DNA of 64,000 nucleotides from Tsukamurella paurometabola DSM 20162 (lineage in GTDB: Bacteria; Actinomycetota; Actinomycetes; Mycobacteriales; Mycobacteriaceae). Made by a program: the position numbers and the translations under genes. Shown here piece after piece: positions 4,672 to 45,863 of this stretch. Each line of letters starts with the position of its first letter. Positions within the stretch are counted from its first letter, which is position 1. The notes under the pieces are model-generated. The model ran no database searches, was not told the origin of the DNA, and worked only from the letters and a program-made list of their open reading frames with translations. The stretch covers positions 3,100,001 to 3,164,000 of the forward strand of contig NC_014158.1 of assembly GCF_000092225.1 (NCBI RefSeq). Direction: 5' to 3'.

Positions 4672-4680
4672 GCTGCAATA

Positions 4681-5145: not shown

Positions 5146-5326
5146 CCCAGACCACGACGACGCACACCAGCGATGCCGCTGCGGCCGCCCAGGCAACCGT
5201 GTTCCAGCCGACGATCGCGCTCGCGGAACCGGTAGCCAGCACCCCGGCGATCGTCACCCCGAGCGACGAGCCGATGTAGCGGGCCGTGTTGTTCACGCCG
5301 CTTCCCATCGCGGCGGCACTGCGCGA
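5063..5326 (-). pseudogene. C-terminal remnant of a DHA2-type MFS transporter
   Basis: On the minus strand the frame reads SAAAMGSGVNNTARYIGSSLG, the conserved last-third motif of 14-TM DHA2 drug transporters, followed by two membrane segments and a natural-looking tail. Immediately upstream are two in-frame stops (about 5327-5332) and no preceding transporter sequence, so only the last roughly 85 codons remain. It overlaps the 3' end of the Nudix gene. A degraded fragment left by deletion is the simplest reading. Confidence 0.65.
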
Positions 5327-5353
5327 GCGTCATCAGATGCTCACGCCCGTCCC

Positions 5354-5599
5354 CTAGTTGCGGTAGTCCTCGACCACCGGCGCCGGCCGCACCGCAGCAT
5401 CGTCGGGGTTCTCGCCGAACTCACGCTTCGCCTTCCGCTGTCGCAGCAGATCCCAGGCTTGATCGAGCTGCTGCTCCAGCCCCTGCAGCTCGGCATTCTC
5501 CTGTTCGGCGTCGATCTCGCCCGCCGCGAGCTTGCGCCGCAACTCGTGTTCGGTGTCGATGAGGTGCTGAATGCGGGTGTGGATCGCATCGTCGGTCAT
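5354..5599 (-). CDS. DUF2630 family protein
   Basis: An 81-residue acidic, highly helical protein. It starts MTDDAIHTRIQHLIDTEHEL and continues as a Glu/Gln/Arg-rich likely coiled coil with the LxQAWDLLRQRxAKREFGENP motif that defines DUF2630, a small family almost confined to actinobacteria. Function is unknown. It is a lone minus-strand gene between the MFS remnant and the CoA-transferase gene. Confidence 0.85.
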   Translation of the reverse strand: MTDDAIHTRIQHLIDTEHELRRKLAAGEIDAEQENAELQGLEQQLDQAWDLLRQRKAKREFGENPDDAAVRPAPVVEDYRN

Positions 5600-5697
5600 G
5601 TCCCGATCCTGCCACTGATTCGGCGGATTTTCGCCCCCGGAACAGGTTCCCGTGGGGCTAGAGTACCAATCGAGCGGTGACGGAGGTCACACCAGGA

Positions 5698-7701
5698 ATG
5701 AGGGAGCAAATGACGATCGATCCGGTTCTGACCCGCACCAGCGCCTCACCGATCCGGGACAAGGTGGTGACCGCCGACGAAGCCGTACGCCTCATCCGCA
5801 ACGGCGACTACCTCGTGGTGGAGGGATTCGCCGGCCAGGGCTACGCGGAAGAACTGGTGCTCGCACTGGAGCGCCGATATCTCGCCAGCGGCAACCCGAA
5901 GGATCTCTCGCTCGTGTTCACCGTGGCTCAGGGCGACCGCGGTGATCGCGGCTTCGTCCACCTGTGCCACGACGGCATGCTCAAGCGCTCTATGGGTGGT
6001 CACTACGGTATGGCGCCCGCGCTGCAGAAGCTCGCCGTCTCCGGCGGAATCGAGGCCTACAACCTGCCGCAGGGCGTGCTCGCTCAGTTGGTCCGCGATA
6101 CCGGCGCCGGCAAACCGGGCCTGCTCACCCGGGTGGGCCTGGGCACCTTCGCCGATCCGCGCCTGGGCGGCGGCAAGGTCAACGACATCACCGTCGAGGA
6201 TCGCGTCCGGATCATGGAGATCGACGGCGAAGAGTATCTGTTCTACAAGGCTTTCGACCGGCTCGACGTCGCCTTTCTTCGCGGTACCACCGCGGATCCC
6301 GCGGGCAACGTCACGATGGAGAAAGAATCGCTCACGCTTGAGGCGTTGGAGATCGCGATCGCGGTGCACAACAAGGGTGGCCTCGTGATCGTGCAGGTGG
6401 AGCGGATCGCCGAACGCGGGTCGCTGCACCCGCGCGATGTGAAGATCCCCGGCGTTCTGGTCGATTGCGTCGTCCTCGCCACCTCTCCCGAGCGGCACAC
6501 CCAGTCCTGGGGATCGCAGTACAACCCGAGCATGAGCGGCGAGATCCGCCAGCCCATGTCCCGGGTGGCCGCGATGCCCCTCGATCCTCGCAAGGTGATC
6601 GCCCGCCGCGCGGCGATGGAACTGCGCCCCAATTCCGTGGTGAACCTGGGCATCGGGGTGCCGGAGGGGGTCGCCGCCGTCGCGACCGAAGAGGGCATCC
6701 TGGACTACCTCACACTGACGGCGGAGCCCGGGGTGATCGGCGGGATGCCCGCCGGTGGAACTGATTTCGGATCGGCGGTCAATCCAGACGCGATCCTCGC
6801 ACAACCCTCGCAATTCGACTTCTACGACGGTGGTGGCCTGGACGCGGCCTTCCTCGGCCTTGCGCAGGCCGATCAACACGGCAACGTGAACGTCAGCCGC
6901 TTCGGCCCGCGGCTCGCAGGCGCCGGCGGATTCATCAACATCAGCCAGAACGCGAAGGCGGTCTACTTCCTCGGCACATTCCTCGCTCCCGCACACACCG
7001 AGGTGGTGGACGGAGCCATCGTCACCACGCAGGGACCAGCGGCTCCGAAATTCCTCAAAGACGTCGATCAGCGCACCTTCTCCGGCGAATACGCCGTGCG
7101 CAGCGGCCAGCCCGTCATGTTCATCACCGAACGCTGCGTCTTCGTACTCACCGAACGCGGTATGGAACTCACCGAGATCGCACCCGGAGTGGACCTCCAG
7201 CGCGATGTTCTGGACCTCATCGAGTTCGAACCGGTCATGGACACGCCACCGGTCACCATGGACGCCAGGATCTTCCGTGACCAGCCGATGGGACTCGGTG
7301 ATGACTTGCTGACCGTTCCGCTCGAGGCGCGGTTCAGTTACGACGAGAAGCGCAACATCTTCTTCCTCAATCTGGAGGGAATCGCGGTTCGTACCGAAGA
7401 AGACATTCAAGGCGCATTCGTCGAGATCGATCAGCGACTCGCGGCCATCGGGCGTCAGGTGAACATGGTGGTCAACTACGACAACTTCTCACTGCCGCCC
7501 GAATTGGCGGATAGCTTCGCAGCGTGCGTCCGCACCACGAATCGATACTGTGAGACCGTGACTCGCTATACGACCTCGGCATTCCTCAGGCTCAAACTGG
7601 CAGATCATCTTGCCGATCGGGGCCTGGCACCGCATCTCTACGAGAGCCGCGGGGAAGCGATCTCCGCATCCCACTCCCCCGACGGTGGCACCTCCGCATG
7701 A
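5698..7701 (+). CDS. Fused two-subunit acyl-CoA:acetate/3-ketoacid CoA-transferase with C-terminal extension
   Basis: A 667-residue family-I CoA-transferase in which the alpha and beta halves are fused, as in YdiF and propionate CoA-transferase. The first half starts KVVTADEAVRLIRNGDYLVV. The second starts RKVIARRAAMELRPNSVVNLGIGVPEGV and carries the catalytic glutamate in AEPGVIGG. Fused enzymes of this kind are usually about 520 residues; here another 130 or so residues follow (from about residue 535), a separate alpha/beta domain resembling an STAS-like module. The enzyme would move CoA between a carboxylic acid and acetyl-CoA or another acyl-CoA. The start is uncertain: GTG 5677, ATG 5698 (GGAGG 11 nt upstream, chosen) or ATG 5710. 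The downstream zinc-finger gene overlaps it by 4 bp. Confidence 0.85.
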   Translation: MREQMTIDPVLTRTSASPIRDKVVTADEAVRLIRNGDYLVVEGFAGQGYAEELVLALERRYLASGNPKDLSLVFTVAQGDRGDRGFVHLCHDGMLKRSMGGHYGMAPALQKLAVSGGIEAYNLPQGVLAQLVRDTGAGKPGLLTRVGLGTFADPRLGGGKVNDITVEDRVRIMEIDGEEYLFYKAFDRLDVAFLRGTTADPAGNVTMEKESLTLEALEIAIAVHNKGGLVIVQVERIAERGSLHPRDVKIPGVLVDCVVLATSPERHTQSWGSQYNPSMSGEIRQPMSRVAAMPLDPRKVIARRAAMELRPNSVVNLGIGVPEGVAAVATEEGILDYLTLTAEPGVIGGMPAGGTDFGSAVNPDAILAQPSQFDFYDGGGLDAAFLGLAQADQHGNVNVSRFGPRLAGAGGFINISQNAKAVYFLGTFLAPAHTEVVDGAIVTTQGPAAPKFLKDVDQRTFSGEYAVRSGQPVMFITERCVFVLTERGMELTEIAPGVDLQRDVLDLIEFEPVMDTPPVTMDARIFRDQPMGLGDDLLTVPLEARFSYDEKRNIFFLNLEGIAVRTEEDIQGAFVEIDQRLAAIGRQVNMVVNYDNFSLPPELADSFAACVRTTNRYCETVTRYTTSAFLRLKLADHLADRGLAPHLYESRGEAISASHSPDGGTSA

Positions 7702-8036
7702 GTGGAATCGATCTCACGGCCCAACCCAGCGGCACCGGCTGCCAGGAGTGCGATGCCGCTGGCGGGTGGTGGTTCCATCTTCGGCGCTGCGCCCAGTGCG
7801 GGCACGTGGGCTGCTGCGACTCATCACCCAGCAGGCATGCCAGTCGGCACGCCCTGGAGACGGATCACCCGGTGATGCAGAGCTTCGAACCAGGCGAGGA
7901 CTGGTTCTGGGACTTTCGTACCCAGCTCGTCTTCGAGGGCCCCGATCTGGCAGAACCCACGAGTCATCCCACGGATCAGCCGGCGCCGGGCCCACACGGT
8001 CGGGTGCCGGCCGATTGGATGCAGCACCTGAACTGA
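7698..8036 (+). CDS. UBP-type zinc finger protein
   Basis: A 112-residue protein with a ubiquitin-hydrolase-type (UBP/BUZ) zinc finger. The pattern of Cys and His is clear: GCQEC, then RCAQCGHVGCCD, then HASRHALETDHPVM and a C-terminal GEDWFWDF strand. In eukaryotes the domain binds the ubiquitin C terminus; actinobacterial stand-alone copies are of unknown role. The ATG overlaps the CoA-transferase stop (ATGA), suggesting translational coupling, though a functional link is not obvious. Confidence 0.85.
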   Translation: MSGIDLTAQPSGTGCQECDAAGGWWFHLRRCAQCGHVGCCDSSPSRHASRHALETDHPVMQSFEPGEDWFWDFRTQLVFEGPDLAEPTSHPTDQPAPGPHGRVPADWMQHLN

Positions 8037-8086
8037 CGGGCCCCGTACCGTCGACGGTGACGCCCGGCCGACGGAAGGGACGACTC

Positions 8087-8305
8087 GTGGAGCTACCGCC
8101 GATGCAGCCCGTCGAATCGAGCGCGATCGAAGCAGCAGGCTACGACCCCGCAGAACAGATCCTGGCCCTCCGATTCACCGGCGGAGCCACCTATCTGTAC
8201 TACGAGGTCCCGCCAGAGGTCTTCGACGATCTTCTCGCTGCCGAGTCCACGGGGCGGTTCGTCAACGGCATCGTCAAACCGCGCTTCCGCGCCGTCGCAC
8301 TCTGA
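8087..8305 (+). CDS. KTSC domain protein
   Basis: A 72-residue protein consisting of one KTSC domain (MQPVESSAIEAAGYDP, then TYLYYEVPPEVFDDLLAAES and GRFVNGIVKPRF). The name-giving K-T-S-C residues are partly replaced, as is common. The domain occurs alone or fused to nucleases and lysyl-tRNA-synthetase-like proteins and may bind RNA; no function is established. The GTG start has GGAAGGGA 6 nt upstream. It is convergent with ahpF. Confidence 0.8.
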   Translation: MELPPMQPVESSAIEAAGYDPAEQILALRFTGGATYLYYEVPPEVFDDLLAAESTGRFVNGIVKPRFRAVAL

Positions 8306-8315
8306 CGGGCGGACG

Positions 8316-9893
8316 TCAGCCGGCGACGACGTCGGCCGGGACGTCGGTACGGATGATGTGGTCGAAGGCACTCAGCGCGGCCGTGGCGCCGGCACCTGCG
8401 GCGACCACGATCTGCTTGAACGGCACGGTGGTGCAGTCGCCGGCGGCGAACACACCGGGCACCGAGGTGCGGCCCGCCTCATCGACGACGATCTCGCCGC
8501 GGGCGCTCAATTCCAGAGTGCCCTCCAGCCACTCGGTGTTGGGCAGCAGGCCGATCTGCACGAAGACCCCGTCCAACTCGAGCGTGTGAGACTCATCGCT
8601 GGTGCGGCTCGTGTAGGTGAGGCCGGTGACCTTACCGCCGTCGCCGAGCACCTCGGTGGTCATCGCACTGACGAGGACATCGACGTTGGGCAGGCTGCGC
8701 AGCTTGCGCTGGAGCACCTGATCGGCGCGCAGTTCGGAGTCGAACTCGATGAGCGTGACGTGGGAGACGATGCCCGCCAAGTCGATCGCGGCCTCGACAC
8801 CCGAGTTGCCGCCGCCGATCACGGCAACGCGCTTGCCCTTGAACAGCGGGCCATCGCAGTGCGGGCAGTAGGTGACGCCCTTGTTGCGGTACTCGGCCTC
8901 GCCGGGCACGTCCATGGAACGCCACCGGGCGCCCGTGGAAATGACGACGGTGCGCGACTGCAGCGCAGCGCCGCTCGTGAGCTCGACGGAGATCATGCCG
9001 GTCGCCTCGTCGCGGCGCAGGTGCGCACCGCGCTGGGTGTTCATGATCTCGACGTCGTACTGGCGCACCTGGTTCTCGAGCTCGGCCGCGAACTTCGGGC
9101 CCTCGGTGTAGCTGACCGAGGTGAAGTTCTCGATGGCCATGGTGTCGAGCACCTGGCCGCCGAAGCGCTCGGCGACGATACCGGTGCGAATCCCCTTGCG
9201 GGCGGCATACACCGAAGCGGTGGCACCGGAGGGACCGCCGCCCACGACGAGCACGTCGAACGGGTCCTTCTCGGCGAGCGAGGCGGCGGTGCGCTCGGCG
9301 GCACCGTCGTCGAGCTTGCCGACGATCTGCTCTAGAGTCATGCGGCCGGAGTCGAACGGCTCGCCGTTGACGAAGACGGTCGGCACGGCCATCACCTGGC
9401 GGCTATCGACCTCGTCCTGGAACAGCGAGCCGTCGATCGCGGTGTGCGTGATGCGCGGGTTGAGCACGGACATGAGGTTCAGTGCCTGAACCACGTCCGG
9501 GCAATTCTGGCAGGACAGCGAGAAGTAGGTCTCGAAGTGGTAGTCGCCGTCGAGCTCGCGGACCTGCTCCAGCAGCTCGGCGGCCTCCTTCGACGGATGA
9601 CCACCCACTTGGAGCAGGGCGAGCACGAGCGACGAGAACTCATGCCCCAGAGGAATTCCGGCGAACTGCACCGCGATGTCGGTGCCTGCGCGCCGGATCA
9701 GGAACGACGGGGTCCGCGGGTCATCGCCGGTCCGGTCGTGGGTGATGTGCTCGGACATGCCCGCGATCTCGTCGAGCAGCTCCGCGAGTTCGGCCGACTT
9801 CGGGCCGTCATCGAGCGTCGAAACCAGCTCGACGGGCATCGTGACGTTCGCGAGCAGGGACTTGAGTTGAGTGGCGAGCGAGGCTTCGAGCAT
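8316..9893 (-). CDS. ahpF: Alkyl hydroperoxide reductase subunit F
   Basis: A 525-residue flavoprotein that passes electrons from NAD(P)H to the peroxiredoxin AhpC. The N-terminal tandem thioredoxin-like domain has a CQNC disulfide (C128/C131), and the thioredoxin-reductase-like part has a [13 protein letters not shown] loop, the redox-active CPHC near residue 345, and a second nucleotide-binding [10 protein letters not shown] motif. The ATG at 9893 follows GGAGG and matches the family length; a longer reading into ahpC was rejected. It lies 89 bp downstream of ahpC, with a strong terminator hairpin in the gap that probably lowers its expression relative to ahpC. Confidence 0.93.
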
Positions 9894-9930
9894 GGTGATC
9901 CGTTCCTCCGGAGAAGCGACAGGGATGAAA

Positions 9931-9970
9931 ACGACTGTGGGGCGGGAGGTGAGCCCCGCCCCACAGTCGT
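9931..9970 (-). terminator. Intra-operon terminator between ahpC and ahpF
   Basis: A perfect 16-bp stem (9931-9946 with 9955-9970) with an 8-nt loop. On the minus strand it is followed at once by a TTTTC run. It stands between ahpC and ahpF, so part of the transcripts should end after ahpC, giving more peroxiredoxin than reductase. Confidence 0.75.
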
Positions 9971-9982
9971 GGCGACAAGGCC

Positions 9983-10546
9983 TTAGATCTTGCCGACGAG
10001 CTCCAGCGACGGAGCGAGGGCGTCGGCGCCCTCTTCCCACTTCGCGGGGCAGACCTCGCCGGGGTGCGAGCGCACGTACTGGGCGGCCTTGACCTTGCGG
10101 ACGAGCTCAGCGGCGTTGCGGCCGATGCCCTCGGCGGTGACCTCGGTGAACTGGACCACGCCGTCGGGGTCGACCAGGAAGGTGCCCCGGTCCGCCAGGC
10201 CCTGGCCCTCGCGGAGCACCTCGAAGTCGGTGCTGATCTGCAGGCTCGGGTCACCGATCATGGCGTACTTGATCTTGGCGATGGTGTCCGACGAGGCGTG
10301 CCACGCCTTGTGGGTGAAGTGCGTGTCGGTGGAGACCGAGAAGACCTCGACGCCGAGGGACTGCAGCTCCTCATAGTGGTCGGCGAGGTCGCCGAGCTCG
10401 GTGGGGCAGACGAAGGTGAAGTCGGCCGGGTAGAAGTAGAAGACGGCCCACTTGCCCTTGATGTCCTCATCGGAGACGGTGACGAAGTTGCCGTCCTTGA
10501 ATGCCTCGGCGGTGAAGGGCTTGATCTGCTTGTTGATCAGCGACAC
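9983..10546 (-). CDS. ahpC: Alkyl hydroperoxide reductase subunit C (2-Cys peroxiredoxin)
   Basis: A 187-residue typical 2-Cys peroxiredoxin of the enterobacterial AhpC type. The peroxidatic Cys47 is in [13 protein letters not shown] and the resolving Cys166 in [10 protein letters not shown]. It reduces organic hydroperoxides, H2O2 and peroxynitrite and is recycled by AhpF, encoded next. The start is the GTG at 10546 (GAGGAAGC upstream), which gives the normal N terminus [11 protein letters not shown] 7-bp perfect inverted repeat 60-78 bp upstream is a candidate operator. No oxyR gene is adjacent. Confidence 0.94.
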
Positions 10547-11281: not shown

Positions 11282-11287
11282 CTTCTG

Positions 11288-11360
11288 TGGAGCTAAGGGG
11301 ACTCGAACCCCTGACCCCCACACTGCCAGTGTGGTGCGCTACCAGCTGCGCCATAGCCCC
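11288..11360 (-). tRNA. tRNA-Ala(GGC)
   Basis: Seventy-three nucleotides on the minus strand fold as a full cloverleaf. The acceptor arm GGGGCTA pairs with TAGCTCC (one G-U), the D arm contains GCGCAGCTGGTAGCGC, the anticodon loop is CTGGCAG with anticodon GGC, and the T arm has GGTTCGAGTCC. CCA is not encoded. Confidence 0.95.
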
Positions 11361-13973: not shown

Positions 13974-15368
13974 CTAGACGAAGGCCCAGAGGAGCAGCAC
14001 CATCGCGAAGCCGACCACCGAGAGGATCGTCTCGAGAACAGTCCAGGTCATCAGCGTCTGTTTGACAGTCATGTTGAAGTACTTCGCGACGATCCAGAAG
14101 CCACCGTCGTTGACGTGACTGAGGATGATCGAGCCCGCTGAGATGGCGATCACAATCAGGGCGATCTGCGCCTGCGAGTACCCGCCCGACGCCACCGCCT
14201 CGCCGATGATCCCGGCGGTCGCGGTGATGGCCACCGTCGCCGACCCCTGCGCGATCCGCAGCGCACAGCTGACCAGGTACGCGGAGACGATGAGCGGCAA
14301 CCCCAGGTTCGACATCGAATCGGTGAGCGCGGTGCCCACGCCAGTGGCCCGAAGGACCGCACCGAACAGGGCACCTGCACCGACGACGAGCAGGATCATG
14401 CCGATCGGCTTGAGCGCATTGCCCGTCATCTCCGCGAGTTGATTGGCGTTGATCCCGCGGCGGATGCCCAGGAGGTAGAAGGCGAGGACGACGGCCAGCG
14501 TGAGCGCAATCGCCGGTGTGCCGAAGAACACCAGGATCGAATAGGGCTGCGAGCCCGGTTCGAGGATCACCGACCCGAAGGTGCCGCCCAGGATCAGCAG
14601 CATCGGGACGGCGATGATGAAGGCGATCAGGCCCAGCGGCGGCGGGGTCTTGCTGGCGTGTTCCTCCTCGGGGACGAAGTCCTCAGGGACCTCGACGATC
14701 ACGCGCTTGCCGATCCAGGTGCCCCACACGATGCCGGAGACGAACCAGGCGGGGATGCCGCAGATGATCCCCATCAGGATGATCCAGCCGAGCGAGGTGT
14801 GGAGCAGGCCTGCGGCGGCCACTGGTCCGGGGTGCGGAGGCAGGAAGGCGTGTGTCATCGATAGTCCCGCGAGCATGGGCAGCGCGTACATCACCAGGGA
14901 CTTGCCGCCGCGCTTGGCGCAGACGTACACCAGCGGCGCCAGGATGAAGATGCCGATGTCGAAGAACACCGGAATACCTAGGATGAGACCGGTGACACCC
15001 ATGGCGAGCGGTGCGCCCTTGGGCCCGAACAGCCGCAGGAGACAGTTGGTGAGAACATCAGCGCCGCCTGATCTTTCGAGCAGGGCGCCCAGGACCGTAC
15101 CGAGGCCGATGATCGGGGCGATGTGACCGAGGATGCCGCCGAACCCGGTTTCCAGAATCGACTGGGCGGCACCCTTCTGCGGCGATCCGACCAGCTTCTC
15201 CACCGAAACGCCGGCCACGAGCGCGAGCCCCACGGACACGATGATCAAGGCGATGAACGGTTCGAGCTTGACCTTGATGATCAGCAACAGCAGCACGGCG
15301 ATCGAGACCGCCGCCAGGGTCAGCAGCCCGCCGGTATCGTGCTGCAACCATTCAACTACCGAGGACAT
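13974..15368 (-). CDS. GntP-family permease (gluconate/amino-sugar acid or D-serine type)
   Basis: A 464-residue integral membrane protein with about 13 hydrophobic segments, of the gluconate:H+ symporter family. Family marks include the PHPGPVAAA loop (about residue 170), [12 protein letters not shown] before it, and [17 protein letters not shown] in the C-terminal half. Members carry gluconate and related sugar acids, and DsdX-type members carry D-serine. It is the last gene of the four-gene minus-strand operon, 9 bp after the aldolase. The context suggests it imports the sugar acid or N-acyl amino-sugar acid that the other enzymes degrade. Confidence 0.88.
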
Positions 15369-15377
15369 CGGCGTCTC

Positions 15378-16001
15378 CTATCCGAGAGCGGCCACGAAAC
15401 GCGCGGCACGCGTGGTGATATCGGCCCAGTCGCCGGCGGCGACGGTGGCGGGTGGCACGACGGACGTGCCGGCGCAGACGGCGACCGCGCCCGCGTCCAG
15501 GAATTCGTGGGCATTGCTCTCGCTGACGCCACCGGACGGTAGCAGGGGCAGTCCCGGGAACGGACCGTGCAGGTCCTTGAGGTAGCCCGGCCCGAAGGCG
15601 CGGGCGGGGAAGATCTTCACGGCTACCGAGCCGAGTGCGGCGGCACGTGCCACTTCGGTCGGAGTGAGCGCCCCGAGGAAGACGGGGATGCCGAAGTCGC
15701 GCGCGGTCTGCGCGACGTCTTCGTTCACATCGGGGGTCACCAGGAATCGGGCGCCCGCGTTCACCGCGTCCCGGGCCTGCGCCGATGTCCGCACGGTGCC
15801 CACCCCGAGGCAGGTTTCGACGACGGTCGCGGCCCGCTCCAGATGGTCGAGCACCCCGGGCGTGGTGAAGGTGAGTTCCACTGTGCGGATGCCGCCGGCG
15901 GCGAGCGCCCGGCACAGCGCCGCCGCATCGGGCAGATCGGGAGCGCGGACGACGGTGAGCACGCGGTCGGCGCGGAGATCGTCGAGTAGGGAGGTGGTCA
16001 C
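15378..16001 (-). CDS. eda: KDPG/KHG-type aldolase
   Basis: A 207-residue class-I aldolase of the 2-keto-3-deoxy-6-phosphogluconate family. The Schiff-base lysine lies in VAVKIFPARAFGPGYLK, the substrate glycine loop in LGVGTVRTSAQAR, and the phosphate-binding end in LPSGGVSESNAHEFL. It would cleave KDPG to pyruvate and glyceraldehyde 3-phosphate. The GTG start at 16001 has AGGAG upstream and overlaps the deacylase stop by 4 bp; a longer reading through the deacylase gene was rejected. With the divergent KDG kinase it completes the lower half of an Entner-Doudoroff-like route. Confidence 0.88.
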   Translation of the reverse strand: MTTSLLDDLRADRVLTVVRAPDLPDAAALCRALAAGGIRTVELTFTTPGVLDHLERAATVVETCLGVGTVRTSAQARDAVNAGARFLVTPDVNEDVAQTARDFGIPVFLGALTPTEVARAAALGSVAVKIFPARAFGPGYLKDLHGPFPGLPLLPSGGVSESNAHEFLDAGAVAVCAGTSVVPPATVAAGDWADITTRAARFVAALG

Positions 16002-17599
16002 AGGACTCCTTCGTCGGTGAGCCGGAGCGCCCCGCCTGCGCGGGCGCCGGTGAGAGCGCCATCGTCGAGCGCGAGGACGCCGCGCACGAAGACGTGCGAG
16101 AAACCCGCGGCAGGTGTCCGCGGAGACTCGTACGTGGCGCGGTCGATCACGGTATCGGGGTCGAACAGTGCCAGGTCGGCGGCGAAGCCCTCGCGGATCA
16201 GGCCGCGACGCACCAGTTTCAGTCGGCGGGCGGCCCGGCCGGTGAGGTGGCCGACGCATTCCTCGAGGCTCATCAGCCCCAGATCGCGGCTGTAGTGACC
16301 GAGATACCGAGCGAAGGTGCCCCAGCCTCGCGGGTGCGGTTTGGCGCCTACGAGCAGTCCGTCGCTGCCACCGGTATGGGTGCGGTGGCGCATGATCGCG
16401 CGCACGTTCTCCTCGTGCCCGACGTGTTGCAGGATGCCGGTGGCGAGCCTGTCGTCGAGCAGGATGCCCACGCACACATCGAACGGATCACGGCCCTCGG
16501 CCGTCGCGATCCGACTGATGGTGCACCCCACATACCCGGCCAGTCGCGGATTGCCGACGCCACTGATTTCAATGGTGTCCCACTCGGCGGTCACACCATG
16601 GCAGCCGTCGGAGCCGCTGTGTTCCAGGTGTTCCCGGATCCGGACCAACGCCTCGGGATCGCGTAGCCTGCCGAGGACGGCATCAGTTCCGCCGGCCGCG
16701 ACCCAGCTGGGCAGAATCGCCGAGAGTGTGGTGGCACCGGGAAGGTACGGGTACGTGTCCAGGCTGATGTCGGCGCCGTCGGCGATCGCCGCGTCGAGCA
16801 GTTCCAGAAGCTCCGGGCCGCGCCCCTTGTTCGGCCCGAAGTTCAGGGTCGCGTGCGCGAGGTGCAGCGGGCAGCCGGTAGCAAGAGAGAGATCGATCAT
16901 CTCCCGGTAGGCGTCCATCGCGCCCGCTCCGTACCTGCGGTGGTGGGGCGAGAAGTAGCCGCCGTGCCGCGCAGTGGTGCGCAGCAACGCATCCAGTTCG
17001 GCGCCGTCTGCGTACATGGCCGGGGTGTAGGTGAGGCCGGTCGAGAGTCCCACGGCCCCCTCGCGAAGCCCCTGCGTCAGGATCTCCTGCATCCGTACCA
17101 CCTCGGACGGGGTCGCGACGCCGTCGTCGAAGCCCCGCGTGAGTGCACGCAGGAGGCCGTGCGGCACGAGATAGGCGAGGTTGGTCGCGGTGCCCGCCTC
17201 ATCAAGCCGGTCCAGGTACTCGCCCACGGTGCGCCAGGAGAAGTCGAAGTCGTCCGGATCGGTGTTCCAGCCGGCGATCTGCTTCCGCACCGCGGCGAGC
17301 GTCTCGTCGGTCACCGGCGCATAGCTCAGGCCGTCCTGGCCGATCACCTCACAGGTGACGCCCTGGGTGATCCAGGACGGATGCGCGGGGTTGAGGAGAA
17401 CCTGAAGGTCCGAATGCGCATGCATGTCGATGAAACCAGGGGTGAGCACCAGCCCGTCGGCATCGATCACTCGATGCGCCGCGCCCACGTCGGCGCCGAT
17501 GGCGGCGATAGCGCCATCGGTGACGGCCACGTCGGCGGTGTACCGCGGCGTCTCGGTGCCGTCGATCACGGCGGCACCGCGGATCACGAAGTCGTGCAT
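15998..17599 (-). CDS. N-acyl-D-amino acid deacylase family amidohydrolase
   Basis: A 533-residue amidohydrolase of the D-aminoacylase family. The N-terminal beta-sandwich strand DFVIRGAAVIDG is followed by the metal motif GFIDMHAHSDLQVL. TTARHGGYFSPHHR and HLAHATLNFG hold further metal-site residues, and the C-terminal sandwich ends with VFVRGVLALDDG. These zinc enzymes release the acyl group from N-acyl-D-amino acids, and relatives deacetylate 2-acetamido-sugar acids. The ATG at 17599 gives the normal family start. It sits between the PLP enzyme (13 bp upstream) and the aldolase (4-bp overlap). Confidence 0.88.
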   Translation of the reverse strand: MHDFVIRGAAVIDGTETPRYTADVAVTDGAIAAIGADVGAAHRVIDADGLVLTPGFIDMHAHSDLQVLLNPAHPSWITQGVTCEVIGQDGLSYAPVTDETLAAVRKQIAGWNTDPDDFDFSWRTVGEYLDRLDEAGTATNLAYLVPHGLLRALTRGFDDGVATPSEVVRMQEILTQGLREGAVGLSTGLTYTPAMYADGAELDALLRTTARHGGYFSPHHRRYGAGAMDAYREMIDLSLATGCPLHLAHATLNFGPNKGRGPELLELLDAAIADGADISLDTYPYLPGATTLSAILPSWVAAGGTDAVLGRLRDPEALVRIREHLEHSGSDGCHGVTAEWDTIEISGVGNPRLAGYVGCTISRIATAEGRDPFDVCVGILLDDRLATGILQHVGHEENVRAIMRHRTHTGGSDGLLVGAKPHPRGWGTFARYLGHYSRDLGLMSLEECVGHLTGRAARRLKLVRRGLIREGFAADLALFDPDTVIDRATYESPRTPAAGFSHVFVRGVLALDDGALTGARAGGALRLTDEGVL

Positions 17600-17612
17600 G
17601 AGGTTCCCGTAA

Positions 17613-18866
17613 TCAGAAGTAGGTGGAGATGACATCGACCACGATCGGATCGGTCGCGTCGTCGGCGACGACCGGGATCACCCTCCATTTGTCGAAGACG
17701 GTGCACGGATGACTGAGACCCAGCCGGACGACGTCGCCAACCTGGAGCGGGTCGTCCGCGCGAAGGCGGAGGAACGCGTGCTGGTCGTTGACGGCGGAGA
17801 TCTCGGCGCTCAGGGGGCGCGGCTCCTCCCCCAGGTTGCCCGCCGCGGCCTGCGGCTCGGGCAGTCCCTCGTCGAACGAGACGTCGCGTCGACCAACGTC
17901 CAGGAGCGCGAGCCCGGGTTCCGGCCGGGATATGACGCGGGCCCAGATGTGCATGGCGGAGCGCAGTTCCGGTGCGCCGGCCTCGCGTCCCGACGGCGTG
18001 ATGAACCGGTAGAAGCCGTCGTCGTGGATGATGTACGCCCCGGATCGGACGACCACGCGCGCGCCCTCGACTCCGCCGAGCACGGCGGCGACGCGATCGA
18101 AGTAGGCGCTTCCGCCCGCGGAGAGCACGATCCGACCCTCCGGGTACAGGGGGCGGAGTCGTTCGTGCAGGGCGAGAATGTTGTTCAGGTATTCATCGAC
18201 AGCGGCGAGAGATGCGGCGGAGGTGTCGTGCGCGAAGGCGCCCTCGTAGCCGGTGACGCCGCCCAGGCGCAGCCGGTCGGACGCGGCGACCCGCTCGCCG
18301 GTCGCGTAGGCGTCGTCGATCGAGCGAGCCCCGGTGCGGCCGCCGGGGCCACCGAGTTCGACGAGCACCGTGGGCTGTCGGACGGCACCCGCGAGTCCGC
18401 GCTCCAGGGCGTCGACGGTGCTCGGACCGTCGGCCCACAGCGTCACGGCCAACTCCGGGTCCGCATCGAGTGCGGCACCCAGCCAGCGCAGTCCGGCGGG
18501 ATCGGCGATGGCGTTGGCCACGTGCAGATCCCGGAATCCGGCGGCGACCGCGACCTGGAGCTGTGGCAGATTGGCGACGGTGATGGCGGTGCAACCGGCG
18601 TCGAGCTGGTCCTGCCACAGCGCGGGCGCCATCGTGGTCTTACCGTGCGGCTCGAGGTCGAGATCGTGGGCAGCCGTCCACCGGGCGAATTCGGCCACGT
18701 TGCGATCCATCGCCGCGCGATCGAGCACCAGAACCGGGGTCGAGAGATCACTCAAGCGCGGTCCACGCGCCAGGAACTCCGCCCGGTCGAGACCGTCGGC
18801 CCACGCCGGGACAGCCTTGTCGACCATGCTCAGAGTGTCTGGTCGCGCCCCGATCCCCCTGCTCAT
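17613..18866 (-). CDS. D-threonine aldolase/D-serine dehydratase-fold PLP enzyme (candidate D-glucosaminate dehydratase)
   Basis: A 417-residue fold-type III PLP enzyme with an alanine-racemase-like barrel. The PLP lysine is in EPHGKTTMAPALW (near residue 76), and the C-terminal metal pair His-x-Cys is in GLSHPCTVFDKW. D-threonine aldolases, eukaryotic-type D-serine dehydratases and the PLP-dependent D-glucosaminate dehydratases share this fold. The nearby KDG kinase, KDPG aldolase and RidA favour a dehydratase that makes a 2-keto-3-deoxy acid, but this is inference. Start ATG 18866 is chosen for the GGGGA upstream; ATG 18827 is the alternative. It is the first gene of the operon. Confidence 0.85.
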   Translation of the reverse strand: MSRGIGARPDTLSMVDKAVPAWADGLDRAEFLARGPRLSDLSTPVLVLDRAAMDRNVAEFARWTAAHDLDLEPHGKTTMAPALWQDQLDAGCTAITVANLPQLQVAVAAGFRDLHVANAIADPAGLRWLGAALDADPELAVTLWADGPSTVDALERGLAGAVRQPTVLVELGGPGGRTGARSIDDAYATGERVAASDRLRLGGVTGYEGAFAHDTSAASLAAVDEYLNNILALHERLRPLYPEGRIVLSAGGSAYFDRVAAVLGGVEGARVVVRSGAYIIHDDGFYRFITPSGREAGAPELRSAMHIWARVISRPEPGLALLDVGRRDVSFDEGLPEPQAAAGNLGEEPRPLSAEISAVNDQHAFLRLRADDPLQVGDVVRLGLSHPCTVFDKWRVIPVVADDATDPIVVDVISTYF

Positions 18867-18885
18867 CGACTTCCCCAATCTGCTA

Positions 18886-18914
18886 TGTTGCGTATATTGC
18901 AATCACTGTTGCGT
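18886..18914. promoter_or_regulatory. Divergent operator region with 21-bp-spaced direct repeats
   Basis: The 112-bp divergent gap holds TGTTGCGT at 18886-18893 and again at 18907-18914, exactly 21 bp (two helical turns) apart. Between them is TTGC-gtatatt-GCAA (18889-18903). This is the most likely binding site of the IclR-type regulator encoded by the right-hand operon, able to control both directions. Confidence 0.5.
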
Positions 18915-18978
18915 GATGCGTGTCACAGACGGTAGCATCGGGCGCAGCACCTGCACAACCACTGAAACCGGAGGCGTG

Positions 18979-20010
18979 GTGACGGAACCACTGATCGCGT
19001 GCGTCGGCGAACCGCTGGCACTGGTCGCGGTCGGCGACCTCGATGCATCCGCACCGTCGATGCACACCGGTGGGGCCGAAGCCAACGTGGCGACCGGTAT
19101 CGCCGCGCTCGGAACGGCGGCCGCCTTCATCGGCCGCGTGGGTGGCGATCGTGAGGGCGCCCGAATCATCGACCACTTGCGCTCACACGCCGTGGACGTG
19201 GCCGCGGTCGAGGCCGACCCCACCGCGTTCACCGGCCGCTACGCCAAGACCGAAGGCGTCGACGAAGCCGGGGAACCGGTCACCGCCAGCACCTACCGGC
19301 GCGCAGGATCCGCTGCGTCCGCCATGACCTCGCGCTTCCTCGACGAGCCAGTGGTCGCCGACGTCCTTCGCCGGGCGACGCTCGTGCACACCTCCGGCAT
19401 CACCGCGGCTCTATCGCCCGGATGCGCAGATCTGGTCACTGCACTGCTCCGCGATCGCCACGGTGTGACGGGCACCGTCACCTTCGATATCAACTGGCGC
19501 GAACAGCTGTGGCCGGCAGGTGATCCGACCCTCGTCATCGACCTCGCGCGCAGTGCGGACGTGGTTCTGGTCGGATCCGATGAGGCCGAACGAGTGCTGG
19601 GCACCGGCGATCCGGCGCACGTGCGCCACGCTCTCCCCGAACCCCACACCGTCGTGGTCAAGGACGGCGCCGCGCGCGCCGTGGCCCTCTCCCGAGACGG
19701 AATGCAGACCGCGGTTCCCGCGCTCACCGTCGAGGTGGTCGAGCCGGTGGGAGCCGGCGACTCGTTCGCCGCGGGATTCCTCAACGGCCTCGCCCACGGC
19801 GAGGATCTCCGGACCTGCCTGCGCCGCGGCCACGCGGGCGCCGCAGCGACCCTCACGGTCCGTGCGGATTTCGCACTGTTGCCGACGGAGGCGCTTCACG
19901 CTCTGCTCACCTGTGACGACGAGACCTGGGCGTGCGCGCAGGTCGGTCCGGATGGCGTACGCGTGGGCGGCACGACGTTCCCGCCACCGTCGGAAAGTGG
20001 GACCGCATGA
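18979..20010 (+). CDS. kdgK: PfkB-family sugar kinase, probable 2-keto-3-deoxygluconate kinase
   Basis: A 343-residue ribokinase-fold kinase. The N-terminal substrate region has MHTGGAEANVATGIAALG and IGRVGGDREG, and the ATP/anion-hole signature is VEPVGAGDSFAAGFLNGL with the catalytic Asp. Residues resemble KDG kinases (GEPLALV, TFDINWREQLW), so it would phosphorylate 2-keto-3-deoxygluconate to KDPG, the substrate of the divergently encoded aldolase. The GTG at 18979 follows GGAGG; longer readings cross the divergent promoter. The stop overlaps the IclR start (ATGA). Confidence 0.85.
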   Translation: MTEPLIACVGEPLALVAVGDLDASAPSMHTGGAEANVATGIAALGTAAAFIGRVGGDREGARIIDHLRSHAVDVAAVEADPTAFTGRYAKTEGVDEAGEPVTASTYRRAGSAASAMTSRFLDEPVVADVLRRATLVHTSGITAALSPGCADLVTALLRDRHGVTGTVTFDINWREQLWPAGDPTLVIDLARSADVVLVGSDEAERVLGTGDPAHVRHALPEPHTVVVKDGAARAVALSRDGMQTAVPALTVEVVEPVGAGDSFAAGFLNGLAHGEDLRTCLRRGHAGAAATLTVRADFALLPTEALHALLTCDDETWACAQVGPDGVRVGGTTFPPPSESGTA

Positions 20011-20753
20011 GCCAGAGCCTGACTCGCGCTCTCGATATCCTCACCCTGCTGGGCGAGGGACCGGCCTCGCTCGACGACCTCGCGGACTCGCTCGGAGTAC
20101 ATAAGACCACCGTGCTGCGCCTGCTGCGACCACTCGTCGATGCCCGCTTCGCGTATCACGATGAGCAGCATCGCTATCACCTCGGATCTCGCGTGTTCGA
20201 CCTGGCGGCACGAGCTTCCGAGCAGCGCAGCATCCGCAGCATCGCCGCACCGCACCTGATCGCCTTCAACCGTGAGTACGGGCGGACCACTCATCTCGCG
20301 GCGCGCGAGGGCGATGCGGTCGTGTACATCGACAAACTCGAATCACGCGATCTGATCCGGATGTACTCCCGCGTCGGCATGGAGGCGAACCTCAATTCCA
20401 GTGCCGTGGGCAAACTTCTCCTGGCCTCGCTGCCGGATGCAGAACTGAAGCCGATCGTCGCGACCATGGACTTCACCCGCCGCACCGCCAACACGATCGT
20501 CACCCCTCAGGAGTATCTGGCGGAGATCGCGCGCGTGCGGGAACAGGACTGGGCGACGGACCGCGAGGAGAACGAGCCTTCGATCAACTGCATCGGGGCT
20601 CCGGTCCGGGATGCCTCCGGTACAACCGTGGCCGCGGTGTCGGTATCGGTACCCGATGTGGTGCTGCCTTTCGAAGACCTACTCGATCTGCTGGACCCGC
20701 TGCGCGCGACGTGCGCGGCCATTTCCGCGGACTGCGGCTACCGACCGCGCTGA
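20007..20753 (+). CDS. IclR-family transcriptional regulator
   Basis: A 248-residue regulator. An N-terminal winged helix (SLDDLADSLGVHKTTVLRLLRPLVDARF, residues about 19-46) is joined to a GAF-like IclR effector domain with the usual YIDKLES, YSRVGMEANLNSSAVGKLLLA and IGAPVRDASG segments. KdgR-type members of this family bind KDG or KDPG, which would suit this cluster. It overlaps the kinase stop by 4 bp and probably acts on the divergent operator between the two operons. Confidence 0.9.
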   Translation: MSQSLTRALDILTLLGEGPASLDDLADSLGVHKTTVLRLLRPLVDARFAYHDEQHRYHLGSRVFDLAARASEQRSIRSIAAPHLIAFNREYGRTTHLAAREGDAVVYIDKLESRDLIRMYSRVGMEANLNSSAVGKLLLASLPDAELKPIVATMDFTRRTANTIVTPQEYLAEIARVREQDWATDREENEPSINCIGAPVRDASGTTVAAVSVSVPDVVLPFEDLLDLLDPLRATCAAISADCGYRPR

Positions 20754-20808
20754 GAACCTCCCGGAGACCCCGGAGACACACCGAATCACCCGACACAGAG
20801 GAGAATCC

Positions 20809-21213
20809 ATGCCCGCCACCGCAATCTCGACCACCGACGCACCAGCTCCCGCCCACTTCTTCAGCCAGGGAGTGCGCCGCGGCAACCTGCTCCAGGTTTC
20901 CGGTCAGGGCCCTATGGACCCGGTGACCAATCAGTACATCGCCGAGGGGGACGTGAAGGCGCAGACCCTGCGCACCCTGCAGAACGTCAAGGCGATCATC
21001 GAGGCCGGCGGTGCGTCGATCGCGGACGTCCTGATGTTCCGCGTCTATCTCACCACCCGCGACGATTTCGCCGCGATGAATGAGGTGTACGGCGCCTTCA
21101 TCGCGGAGAACGTCCCCGAGGGATCGGCGCTGCCGTGCCGCACGACTGTCTTCGTCGACCTGCCGCACGAAGTGATGCTGGTCGAGATCGACGCCCTGGC
21201 CGCACTCGACTGA
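20809..21213 (+). CDS. ridA: RidA-family enamine/imine deaminase
   Basis: A 134-residue YjgF/YER057c/UK114-family protein. The ordered motifs are FFSQGVRRGNLLQVSGQGPMDP, QTLRTLQNVKAIIEAGGASIADVL, the catalytic-site Arg in CRTTVFVDLP, and LVEIDALA. RidA hydrolyses reactive 2-aminoacrylate-type enamines and imines made by PLP dehydratases. Its presence next to a D-threonine aldolase-fold enzyme supports a dehydratase/deaminase reaction there. ATG 20809 follows AGAGGAG. It is the last gene of the right-hand operon, 55 bp after the IclR gene. Confidence 0.9.
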   Translation: MPATAISTTDAPAPAHFFSQGVRRGNLLQVSGQGPMDPVTNQYIAEGDVKAQTLRTLQNVKAIIEAGGASIADVLMFRVYLTTRDDFAAMNEVYGAFIAENVPEGSALPCRTTVFVDLPHEVMLVEIDALAALD

Positions 21214-24005: not shown

Positions 24006-25475
24006 ATGGTCGAGGATCTGTCTGCTGTGGCCCGCGAGTATGTGGAGGGGCTGAGCCCGCAGGAGAGACGGGTTGTGCTTGATGCGGTGGTGAACGCGCG
24101 GTTCGCTGCAGAGGTCGATGCTCTGACGCGGGTGCGGCAGCCGACGCTGCTACCTGTGCCTGACCGGGTGGTCGGGTTTCGTGTCCGGTTGGATCTGCAT
24201 GGCGCGAAGCCTCCTGTGTGGCGGCGGCTGGAGTTGCCCGGCGATCTGACACTTTCTGCTGTGCACGAGGTGATCCAGGCGGCGATGGGCTGGTACGACT
24301 GTCACCTGCACAAGTTCAGGACAGGCAGCGATCATCGTTCTCCGGCCTTCCTGACGGCATTCGATGTCAGCGAGGGCGAGGAAGGGGTGCTGGAGCAGGA
24401 TGTCCGGCTCGATCAGGTCATCGCGGGCGTGGGTGACGAGCTGTGGTACGAGTACGACTTTGGCGATGGCTGGGAGCACAAGCTCAAGGTTGAGCAGGTC
24501 CTCGACACCTGTCCGTCTGCGTCGCTGTGTGTGGCGGGGAAGAACGCGTGCCCGCCTGAGGACTGCGGTGGTCTGGGCGGGTTCCATGAAGTAGCACTGT
24601 GGGTTCGCAAGGGTAGGGACGCGGCGCACCTTCCTGACAGTTTCGGCAGCGCGGAGGAGGCGAACGACTGGCTCCCTGGGGGCTGGGACCCGGATGTCTT
24701 CGACGTCGATGACGCCAATGCCGCCATCACGCTCGCTCTTTTCGATCCTGCTTCGGTTCTGGCTCCAGGCCACGGTGAACTGGGGCAGATCGCCCATCGG
24801 CTGACGATGCAGGGCAGCTCGTTGTTGCAGGGGGTGCTCGCGCGGCCGCAGTCGCACGGCCAGGCCAGTGTGTCCGCCGCGGAAGCTGAACGGCTCACCG
24901 AGCCTTACCGTCTGCTGCTCGAAGAAGTCGGTGAGGGGGTCAAGCTCACCGCCGCGGGTTACCTCCCGCCTGTTGTGGTCGAGCGGTTCGCGCAGCGCAG
25001 TGGCATCGCGAACTGGTGGATGGGAAAGGCGAACCGGGAGGATCTCACGCCTCCGGTGGCGACGGTGCGTGAAGCGGCGCAGGCGGTGGGGCTACTCAGT
25101 GTCCGCAAGGGCAGGATCAGCCCAACCCGGGCTGCTCGTCGCATCGGCGGTGACCCCACAGCGTTGTGGGAACACATCGTGGGACGGCTTCCTTGCGGTA
25201 CCAAGGATTTCGATCGTGAGGCCGGATGGCTCCTGCTTGCCGTGGTCGGGAGCGGAACACCGGTGGAGAACTGGCGAAAAGAGGTCAGTGACCTGCTCTA
25301 CGCAGCAGGATGGAGAACCGGCGGCGCCAACCGCTACCCGATGATGCTGCCCGTGACGAGCCCGACCTACACGATCCTCGAGAGCATGACCGATACGCAC
25401 CGCGATAGATGGCACGTGCGCGGAACAGACGACGGTATCGCTGCTACCGCCCGCGCAGTGCTCAACCAGCGATAA
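24006..25475 (+). CDS. PRiA4_ORF3 (IS1096 passenger TnpR-like) family protein
   Basis: A 489-residue protein with the pRiA4b ORF-3-like domain in its first 220 residues: FRVRLDLHGAKPPVWRRLEL, then HEVIQAAMGWYDCHLHKF and YEYDFGDGWEHKLKVE, plus a Cys cluster ACPPEDCGGLGGF. The C-terminal 250 residues are a conserved but uncharacterised helical region. In actinobacteria this family is often labelled as an IS1096 passenger TnpR protein, although it has no resemblance to resolvases. Here it lies inside the IS21 element, opposite in strand to istA/istB, so it is cargo. Its role is unknown. Confidence 0.85.
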   Translation: MVEDLSAVAREYVEGLSPQERRVVLDAVVNARFAAEVDALTRVRQPTLLPVPDRVVGFRVRLDLHGAKPPVWRRLELPGDLTLSAVHEVIQAAMGWYDCHLHKFRTGSDHRSPAFLTAFDVSEGEEGVLEQDVRLDQVIAGVGDELWYEYDFGDGWEHKLKVEQVLDTCPSASLCVAGKNACPPEDCGGLGGFHEVALWVRKGRDAAHLPDSFGSAEEANDWLPGGWDPDVFDVDDANAAITLALFDPASVLAPGHGELGQIAHRLTMQGSSLLQGVLARPQSHGQASVSAAEAERLTEPYRLLLEEVGEGVKLTAAGYLPPVVVERFAQRSGIANWWMGKANREDLTPPVATVREAAQAVGLLSVRKGRISPTRAARRIGGDPTALWEHIVGRLPCGTKDFDREAGWLLLAVVGSGTPVENWRKEVSDLLYAAGWRTGGANRYPMMLPVTSPTYTILESMTDTHRDRWHVRGTDDGIAATARAVLNQR

Positions 25476-25785: not shown

Positions 25786-26610
25786 TCAGAACTCTGCCGC
25801 CCCCTCGGTGTGTGCGAGTCGGTAGCTGTGGGTGCCGGTTTCGATGATGGTGCCGCGGTAGGTCAACCGGTCGACGATGGCGGCGCAGAGCCGGGGGTCG
25901 GTGAAGGTGTCGGTCCAGCCGGAGAAGGATTGGTTGGAGGCGATCGCGACGCTGTTCTTCTCCTCGCGTTCGGTGAGGACTTGGAAGAGCAGTTCGGCGC
26001 CGCGGCGGTCGAGTTCCATGTAGCCGAGCTCGTCAATGATGAGCAGGTCAACGCGGCCGTAGCGGTTGATGGTCTTGGCGAGCTGCTTGTCGTCAGCGGC
26101 TTCGACCAGCTCGTTCACCAGTTTCGTGGCGAGGGTGTAGCGGACTCTAAAGCCCTGCTCAGCGGCGGCGGTTCCCAATCCGATCAGCAGGTGGGATTTG
26201 CCGGTTCCGGAGTCGCCGATCAGGCAGAGCGGCAGGCCGTGGCGGATCCAGTCGCCGGTGGCGAGCTGGTGGATGGTGGCGGCCTCGATGTCGGGGTTGG
26301 CGTCGAAGTCGAAGTCCGCCAACCACTTATCCCTCGGGAACCCGGCGGCTTTCACGCGGCGAACAGTCGAGCGCCGGTCGCGGTCATCGACCTCCGCCAG
26401 GAGGAGTTCGGCGAGGAACCCCTGATACGAGAGCTGTTGCTTGGCCGCGGCGGCGAGGTGCTGGTCGATCATCGACCGCACCGTCGGTAGCCGCAGGCGT
26501 CGGCAGGCTTGGTCAACGGCAGCGATCGCGGCTTCTTCGGTGAGACCTCCGCGGCGCCGCAGTGATGGCGCCAGCGTGGTGGCCTGGGACTTCGAGGTGG
26601 TGGTGCTCAT
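25786..26610 (-). CDS. istB: IS21-family helper ATPase IstB
   Basis: A 274-residue AAA+ ATPase that assists IstA in target selection and strand transfer. The Walker A loop is CLIGDSGTGKSHLLIGLG (about residue 108), the Walker B is LLIIDELGYMELDR, and sensor residues follow in SVAIASNQSF. Its start overlaps the istA stop by 4 bp (ATGA), the arrangement usual in the family. Length and motifs are intact, so it is probably functional. Confidence 0.95.
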   Translation of the reverse strand: MSTTTSKSQATTLAPSLRRRGGLTEEAAIAAVDQACRRLRLPTVRSMIDQHLAAAAKQQLSYQGFLAELLLAEVDDRDRRSTVRRVKAAGFPRDKWLADFDFDANPDIEAATIHQLATGDWIRHGLPLCLIGDSGTGKSHLLIGLGTAAAEQGFRVRYTLATKLVNELVEAADDKQLAKTINRYGRVDLLIIDELGYMELDRRGAELLFQVLTEREEKNSVAIASNQSFSGWTDTFTDPRLCAAIVDRLTYRGTIIETGTHSYRLAHTEGAAEF

Positions 26611-29871: not shown

Positions 29872-29875
29872 CTCG

Positions 29876-30243
29876 TGGAGCCGCCGGGAATTGAACCCGG
29901 GTCCTCCGTCATTTCTACGGGGCTTCTCCGTGCGCAGTCCGCTGTGTCTCTACTCGGATCTCCCAGTCTCACGGACGAGCAAGGATGACGATCCCAGTCG
30001 CTGTTTGATGTCCCTCACGATGCCGCGACCGCACCGTGAGGTGAATCCCTCTAGCTGATGCCAGGAACCGGGCCGAGGGCGAACCCGGGCTGACAGACTC
30101 GCTTTGCTACTTAGGCAGCAAGAGCGAAGTCGCGCTGATTGGAATCGGCGCTTATAGGGTTGCTGCGACGCTTACGGTGGTCTCCAGCCTGCACCGGCAC
30201 GCTTCCCCCGCGTCAACAAACGAAGTCGAAACCGATCGGCCCC
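29876..30243 (-). ncRNA. ssrA: Transfer-messenger RNA (tmRNA)
   Basis: A 368-nt one-piece tmRNA on the minus strand. The ends form a tRNA-like acceptor arm (GGGGCCG with CGGCTCC) and the 3' T arm reads GGTTCAATTCC. The 5' end has the conserved GGTTTCGACTTCG. The internal reading frame encodes the tag ADSNQRDFALAA before TAA at about 30111-30149. With SmpB it rescues stalled ribosomes and marks the unfinished protein for proteolysis. smpB lies 340 bp upstream on the same strand. Confidence 0.95.
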
Positions 30244-45857: not shown

Positions 45858-45863
45858 ACCTAG

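Follow-up and report, generated by a model that had tools for sequence, protein, structure and literature searches.

A Seven-Gene Cluster in Two Divergent Operons

We analysed a 64,000-nt stretch of Tsukamurella paurometabola DSM 20162 (contig NC_014158.1, positions 3,100,001–3,164,000), hereafter the window, and focused on its positions 13974–21213, which hold a candidate cluster for the catabolism of an N-acylated amino sugar acid. A first-pass annotation had read this part as seven genes in two divergent operons. All seven open reading frames (ORFs) were indeed present, and Pfam assigned each of them to a family. The genes and the operator between the two operons were, in window coordinates:

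13974..15368, minus strand: GntP-family sugar-acid:H+ symporter, proposed to take up the aldonate (PF02447, 428 bits; NCBIfam TIGR00791 gluconate:H+ symporter, 380 bits, above the cut-off of 292.75)
15378..16001, minus strand: 2-keto-3-deoxy-6-phosphogluconate (KDPG) aldolase, predicted to yield pyruvate and glyceraldehyde 3-phosphate (PF01081, 144 bits; TIGR01182 eda, 174.3 bits, above the cut-off of 156.05)
15998..17599, minus strand: D-aminoacylase-like amidohydrolase of the GQDG type, a proposed aldonate N-deacylase (PF07969 Amidohydro_3, 140 bits)
17613..18866, minus strand: fold-III pyridoxal phosphate (PLP) deaminase/dehydratase of the OngC/D-serine-deaminase subfamily, proposed to convert a 2-amino-2-deoxyaldonate to 2-keto-3-deoxygluconate (KDG) and ammonia (PF14031 D-ser_dehydrat, 81 bits)
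18887..18902, no strand: palindromic operator, TTGCAATATACGCAAC on the minus strand, a probable IclR-family site between the operons (motif conservation)
18979..20010, plus strand: PfkB-family kinase, a proposed KDG kinase (PF00294, 157 bits)
20007..20753, plus strand: IclR-family regulator (PF01614 IclR_C, 153 bits; the best NCBIfam models, BhcR and KdgR, scored under their cut-offs)
20809..21213, plus strand: RidA-family enamine/imine deaminase (PF01042 Ribonuc_L-PSP, 98 bits)

The closely spaced minus-strand operon runs from the PLP enzyme through the amidohydrolase and the KDPG aldolase to GntP, with 13 bp between the first two genes; the plus-strand operon comprises kinase, regulator and RidA, in that order. 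After refinement of the start codons, the intergenic region between the operons extended over approximately 18867–18978. The PLP enzyme was taken to start at ATG 18866 rather than at TTG 18902, which falls within the operator, and the kinase at GTG 18979 or GTG 18976. The deacylase starts at ATG 17599, matching the annotation of Tsukamurella tyrosinosolvens, and the aldolase at a GTG (16001) that overlaps the stop codon of the deacylase gene. The annotated T. tyrosinosolvens record shows the same gene order with proteins 73–92% identical to ours, and its present annotations of these genes include alanine racemase and D-aminoacylase.

Conservation across Actinobacteria

Relatives of the cluster were collected by a scan of genome contigs that used eight aligned cluster deacylases as the query, and the best 80 of 467 confirmed relatives were taken as the locus sample. 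Judged by record titles, all 80 loci were actinobacterial and belonged to 18 genera, with Streptomyces contributing 42. Several loci stop at contig edges, so gene counts per locus are lower bounds. The PLP gene lay close to the deacylase gene on the same strand in all 80 loci (18 genera), across gaps of at most 735 bp with a median of 23 bp; in locus L100 a RidA gene stands between the two. Kinase, RidA and IclR genes were each found in 72 loci, and wherever the kinase was found (72/72) it was divergent to the PLP gene. GntP was present in 54 loci, two of them with weak matches (32% and 36%), either downstream of the deacylase or beyond RidA. The KDPG aldolase was less regular: it was found in 23 loci and not beside the cluster in the other 57. 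Ten genomes drawn from these 57 were tested, and all ten encoded a PF01081 aldolase elsewhere.

The first-pass annotation had suggested a search of other Mycobacteriales for the same gene set. Within the sample, all seven genes occurred together in 13 loci from 6 genera; the core set of five (PLP enzyme, deacylase, kinase, IclR and RidA) was complete in 65 loci from 14 genera. Each of these gene families is common on its own, and unrelated catabolic genes might have become neighbours by chance; given the recurrence of the five core genes and the conserved operator that they share, we regard this as barely credible. The gene set is a conserved module, more than a chance neighbourhood, because linkage of the PLP and deacylase genes extends over 18 genera and that of all five core genes over 14. 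A Microbacterium record (L025, 7992–12215) carried homologues of kinase, PLP enzyme, deacylase and RidA in the same arrangement, the first three matching in several pieces (apparently broken genes or sequencing errors).

The operator was assessed in 89 orthologous intergenic regions (the window and 88 loci). With at most one mismatch, its core ATACGCAAYR was found in 72 of them, compared to a mean of 1.28 and a maximum of 5 over 100 shuffles; the motif came from the window and was sharpened on these very regions, and shuffling takes no account of their common descent. The operator at 18887–18902 was also the sole exact match of the wider pattern TTGCRNNATRCGCAAY in the genome. When one mismatch was allowed, the genome held six matches in all, versus three for a reversed control. 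Since the operator is conserved in the intergenic regions and is the only exact match genome-wide, a single regulator site probably controls the two operons and hardly anything beyond them.

The PLP Enzyme

The first-pass annotation had given the PLP enzyme the D-threonine aldolase fold, which is also that of D-glucosaminate dehydratase; by sequence, identity as a D-threonine aldolase was rejected. Its best solved relative was 3gwq ("D-serine deaminase", 192 bits), compared to 94 bits for the best aldolase (7dib). OngC, the deaminase of the marine chitin-monomer pathway, also had 3gwq as its best hit, and the two enzymes share the motifs PHGKTTM (PLP) and SHPC..DKW (metal), both of which are missing from the less closely related proteins of L051 and L052 (22% and 27% identical). 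By its D-ser_dehydrat domain, its SHPC metal motif and its best match, we therefore place the enzyme in the OngC/D-serine-deaminase subfamily. Orthology to OngC did not follow: the two are approximately 34% identical, and four OngC sequences formed a branch of their own in a tree without branch support values. Because OngC acts on D-glucosaminate (GlcN1A), D-Ser and D-Thr (PMC9537276), family membership alone leaves the substrate of the PLP enzyme unfixed.

Genomic Context Bearing on the Substrate

Neighbouring genes in some relatives were informative about the substrate. A lactonase gene was found in eight of the 80 loci, namely all eight loci from Amycolatopsis and Saccharopolyspora. Five of them, four from Amycolatopsis and one from Saccharopolyspora, have a cluster that runs on into this lactonase, ATP-binding cassette (ABC) sugar transporter genes and a hexosaminidase of glycoside hydrolase family 20 (GH20). 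GH20 and ABC permease genes were thus detected in five loci and the ABC binding protein in six, the sixth being L068, a lactonase-bearing locus of the same two genera in which the binding protein stands at the end of the available stretch. All of these families were confirmed by Pfam in L069, as was the lactonase in L068 and L100; the remaining loci were assigned by similarity to L069. By eye, a twin-arginine-like leader was read on the L069 lactonase and no evident leader on the GH20 protein of that locus. The other recurrent neighbours that we inspected in the list were read as flanking genes or wrong-frame gene-finder calls.

Two further loci bear on the same question. Locus L041 (2778–11026) has the kinase, aldolase, PLP enzyme, IclR and RidA genes, and an M20-family hydrolase replaces the amidohydrolase between aldolase and PLP enzyme, which suggests that the deacylation step was kept. 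Its flanks carry a major facilitator superfamily transporter and an FAD-linked oxidase. In a Vibrio ong cluster (L046), a PF10282 lactonase (16882–17904) lies just beyond GH20; the sections consulted of the ong-cluster paper (PMC9537276) make no mention of it. Taken together, the lactonase, GH20, ABC and M20 contexts favour an N-acylated aldonate of amino-sugar origin, or the corresponding lactone, as the substrate.

Two order-level relatives (L031 and L032, approximately 4286–10130) combine the PLP enzyme with a 37%-identical GQDG deacylase and a PF10282 lactonase. No kinase or aldolase was found near this cluster. L032 also carries two confirmed short-chain dehydrogenases, and both loci may represent a non-phosphorylative route of N-acetylglucosamine (GlcNAc) oxidation.

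The Deacylase and the Choice of Substrate

The published deacetylase for N-acetyl-D-glucosaminate (GlcNAc1A) is OngB, for which Wang et al. (2025) solved the structure of PpOngB and identified its specificity-determining residues (PMC12017989). As a reference we used WP_209438165, the PaOngB assayed in that study, which is encoded in L045. The window deacylase was 33% identical to it and 38% identical to the aligned part of the D-aminoacylase AfDam. It keeps the His ligands His222 and His252, the catalytic Asp368, and the Tyr and Arg that anchor the substrate in AfDam. A 36-sequence tree united the deacylases from actinobacteria in one clade (27 sequences, FastTree support 1.0); OngB grouped separately, with AfDam and two further D-aminoacylases (6 sequences, support 1.0). 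Residues, identity and tree together led us to reject orthology to OngB; the sequence comparisons place the enzyme in a separate, non-orthologous clade of the D-aminoacylase fold. Any GlcNAc1A activity of its own would therefore have arisen separately.

Several observations weigh against a GlcNAc1A pathway, among them those on the deacylase. Its best solved-structure matches were AfDam chains (256 bits), ahead of PpOngB (213 bits). In place of the OngB metal ligand Cys97, the window enzyme has Asp (Asp89), as do all 80 relatives; Glu226 is replaced by Tyr and Ser292 by Thr, again in the window enzyme and all 80 relatives; and the carboxylate-binding Lys254 has become Thr in the window enzyme and 77 relatives and Val in the other three. 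The Gln298 column holds Arg in the window enzyme and nine close relatives, in a gapped and uncertain part of the alignment. The S292T substitution lowers the kcat/Km of PpOngB to 1.3%, and the Cys metal ligand and Lys anchor of the AfDam/BbDam type, both lacking in the window deacylase, have been called strictly conserved (PMC12017989). The kinase and RidA also fell short of their NCBIfam cut-offs: the best models for the kinase were KDG and 2-keto-3-deoxygalactonate kinases, with 139.9 against a cut-off of 440 for the KDG kinase equivalog, and RidA reached 100.6 bits against 106.25 for TIGR00004, membership of the PfkB and PF01042 families being clear in each case. The supporting context was narrow, with GH20 confined to two genera and the lactonase to these two and L031/L032. 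Finally, the PLP enzyme had a match in all 16 Tsukamurella genomes searched (63–100% identical), four of which had no deacylase orthologue. One of these four retained a 41-residue deacylase piece beside the PLP gene, and in L044 and L029, both Tsukamurella, the PLP gene adjoins pgm and the other six genes were not found nearby. This persistence without the deacylase favours a second role for the PLP enzyme, such as D-Ser removal, and speaks against strict specificity.

One alternative reading is N-acyl-D-amino-acid catabolism: the deacylase would free D-Ser or D-Thr, the PLP enzyme would deaminate them, and kinase, aldolase and GntP would belong to a separate, adjacent sugar-acid route. Such a reading would accommodate the closeness of the deacylase to AfDam, the Thr at position 292 that D-aminoacylases have, the four Tsukamurella genomes, the activity of OngC itself on D-Ser and D-Thr, and the sets of PLP enzyme, RidA and IclR that accompany amino-acid ABC transporters in Klebsiella variicola and Pantoea. 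We nevertheless consider it quite improbable. Deamination of D-Ser and D-Thr gives pyruvate and 2-oxobutyrate, for which no KDG kinase is needed; the invariably divergent kinase shares its promoter region and operator with the PLP gene; and the lactonase and GH20 context would be left unexplained.

Another alternative keeps the pathway logic and changes the substrate, which would be N-acetyl-D-galactosaminate, an aminoaldonate with a different N-acyl group, or the lactone itself. In its pocket, the deacylase departs from OngB at several substrate-contact positions, the lost carboxylate-binding Lys among them, and GH20 enzymes can also act on N-acetylgalactosamine. Kinase and aldolase of the Klebsiella ong cluster are annotated as galactonate-type, so family names do not settle the sugar. 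The aldolase argues the other way: it passes the KDPG/2-keto-4-hydroxyglutarate aldolase model TIGR01182 (174 versus 156) and lies far under the model for 2-keto-3-deoxy-6-phosphogalactonate aldolase, NF006600 (99.6 versus 207). The GH20 and lactonase context likewise fits a chitin-oxidation cluster, and we judge a different substrate unlikely.

A GQDG-type D-aminoacylase in Cetobacterium (L053, 5394–10808) stands with diaminopropionate ammonia-lyase, YgeY and SsnA, which suggests another substrate for this deacylase type. The OngB-like gene in a Klebsiella pneumoniae ong cluster (L047, 8998–10411) was found in two overlapping pieces, apparently broken, and was excluded from use.

Chitin-Degrading Capacity

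A search of the T. paurometabola genome for LPMO_10 (lytic polysaccharide monooxygenase, LPMO), GH18, GH20 and PF10282 lactonase returned no match, a further point against the GlcNAc1A reading. Oxidation of chitin by T. paurometabola itself was rejected for the same reason; the organism would scavenge the monomer, using acid made by others or arriving another way.

We also compared the distribution of LPMO_10 with that of the strict deacylase clade, delimited at 600 bits, a limit set after the score gap was visible. Among 196 genomes of the class, LPMO_10 was present in 27 of 33 with the clade and in 29 of 163 others (Fisher p-value 2.5e-12). Leaving out family f31, whose 18 genomes each have the two together, gave 9/15 versus 29/163 (p-value 0.0007), and counting by genus gave 6/11 versus 16/71 (p-value 0.06), one of the six genera (g98) being mixed. 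The association is confounded by lineage and carries little weight.

Proposed Pathway

We propose that the cluster serves the catabolism of an N-acylated 2-amino-2-deoxyaldonic acid, most likely GlcNAc1A, a reading that we hold with moderate confidence; each step has a fitting gene in the cluster. GntP would import the N-acylated aldonate, and the amidohydrolase would strip the acyl group, releasing acetate. The PLP enzyme would then eliminate the C3 hydroxyl of D-glucosaminate, giving an enamine/imine that RidA would help to hydrolyse to KDG and ammonia. Phosphorylation by the PfkB kinase would give KDPG, and the aldolase would split it into pyruvate and glyceraldehyde 3-phosphate. Both operons would be controlled by the IclR protein through their single shared operator. 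Where relatives carry the extended cluster, lactone opening would fall to a secreted lactonase, import of oxidised chito-oligomers to the ABC transporter, and release of GlcNAc1A to GH20. We infer each reaction and the substrate from the genes, their families and linkage, the operator motif and the context, all of which were observed directly.

The first-pass annotation had proposed this route with GlcNAc1A as the starting compound, and our results support it in part. Its general outline, from an N-acyl-2-amino-2-deoxyaldonate through KDG and KDPG to pyruvate and glyceraldehyde 3-phosphate, is well supported and likely to be correct, because linkage is conserved, the operator is shared, and lactonase, GH20 and ABC genes accompany the cluster in some relatives. 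The deacylase is no OngB orthologue and lacks the diagnostic residues; on balance, GlcNAc1A is probably the main substrate.

Chitin-active LPMOs leave C1-oxidised ends, for which the published catabolic route has been reported almost only from Gammaproteobacteria, the exception being one betaproteobacterium (PMC9537276). Titles and abstract openings on chitin oxidation, GlcNAc1A, D-glucosaminate and Streptomyces chitin use, a search with subscription papers mostly outside it, yielded no actinobacterial route through GlcNAc1A or glucosaminate. In one paper that names both GlcNAc1A and Actinobacteria, the single mention at issue concerned GH19. Soil actinobacteria, many Streptomyces included, may own a pathway for the C1-oxidised chitin end, with GlcNAc1A deacetylation having evolved separately from marine OngB, in the clade with Asp for Cys, and in one lineage having passed to an M20-family hydrolase; we see the chances of this wider proposal as evenly poised. 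If true, the marine pathway would have a terrestrial counterpart that includes a new subfamily of deacetylases, and a directly testable function could be given to genes that now bear the annotations alanine racemase and D-aminoacylase.

Other Features of the Window

Outside the cluster, the window carries an IstB/IS21-type ATPase gene (25786–26610) near a pRiA4b ORF-3-like gene (24006–25475), possibly the remnant of a mobile element. A transfer-messenger RNA gene with the tag ADSNQRDFALAA was found at 29875–30243, and genes for tRNA-Ala and tRNA-Met at 11287–11360 and 45863–45937, respectively.

Comparison with Known Systems

A D-glucosaminate-6-phosphate route of the DgaE/DgaF type (PMC9529869) ends in KDPG and pyruvate, like the route proposed here. 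It differs in its phosphorylated intermediate and its ammonia-lyase, and it has no member among the seven genes. The GlcNAc route predicted for Natrarchaeobius is likewise an oxidative amino-sugar route that passes via D-glucosaminate to KDPG, but there a CE14 (carbohydrate esterase family 14) enzyme deacetylates first, glucosamine is then oxidised, and phosphorylation is proposed to precede deamination (PMC12343721).

At the level of single enzymes, AfDam (1M7J), a D-aminoacylase, and BbDam (3GIP), an N-acyl-D-glutamate deacylase, belong to the same sequence family as the window deacylase, which keeps the AfDam ligands, catalytic Asp and anchor residues named above and, with its relatives, differs from both in having Asp for the metal-ligand Cys and Thr or Val for the carboxylate-binding Lys. 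The PLP enzyme has both motifs of the OngC/amino acid deaminase subfamily and stands on a separate branch of it.

The closest system is the ong cluster of Pseudoalteromonas prydzensis and relatives, in which OngB, OngC and KdgK convert GlcNAc1A through GlcN1A and KDG to KDG 6-phosphate and the RidA-type OngD is required for growth (Jiang et al. 2022, PMC9537276). The first-pass annotation had pointed to a similar set for chitin oxidation in marine Gammaproteobacteria, which matches this report. Both clusters unite a D-aminoacylase-fold deacylase, a PLP deaminase of the same subfamily, RidA, a PfkB kinase and a transporter. Vibrio and Klebsiella ong clusters include an aldolase gene, GH20 occurs in the ong cluster as in some actinobacterial clusters, and a lactonase lies near a Vibrio one. 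There are also differences: the window deacylase falls in another clade without the OngB residues, GntP stands in place of a solute:sodium symporter (SSS) and IclR in place of a MurR/RpiR regulator, no TonB receptor is present in the cluster, and the genome is actinobacterial and without an LPMO_10 match. The proposed pathway thus departs from the known oxidative chitin-monomer pathway in its putative non-orthologous deacetylase, its predicted IclR control and GntP uptake, and its occurrence in many actinobacteria.

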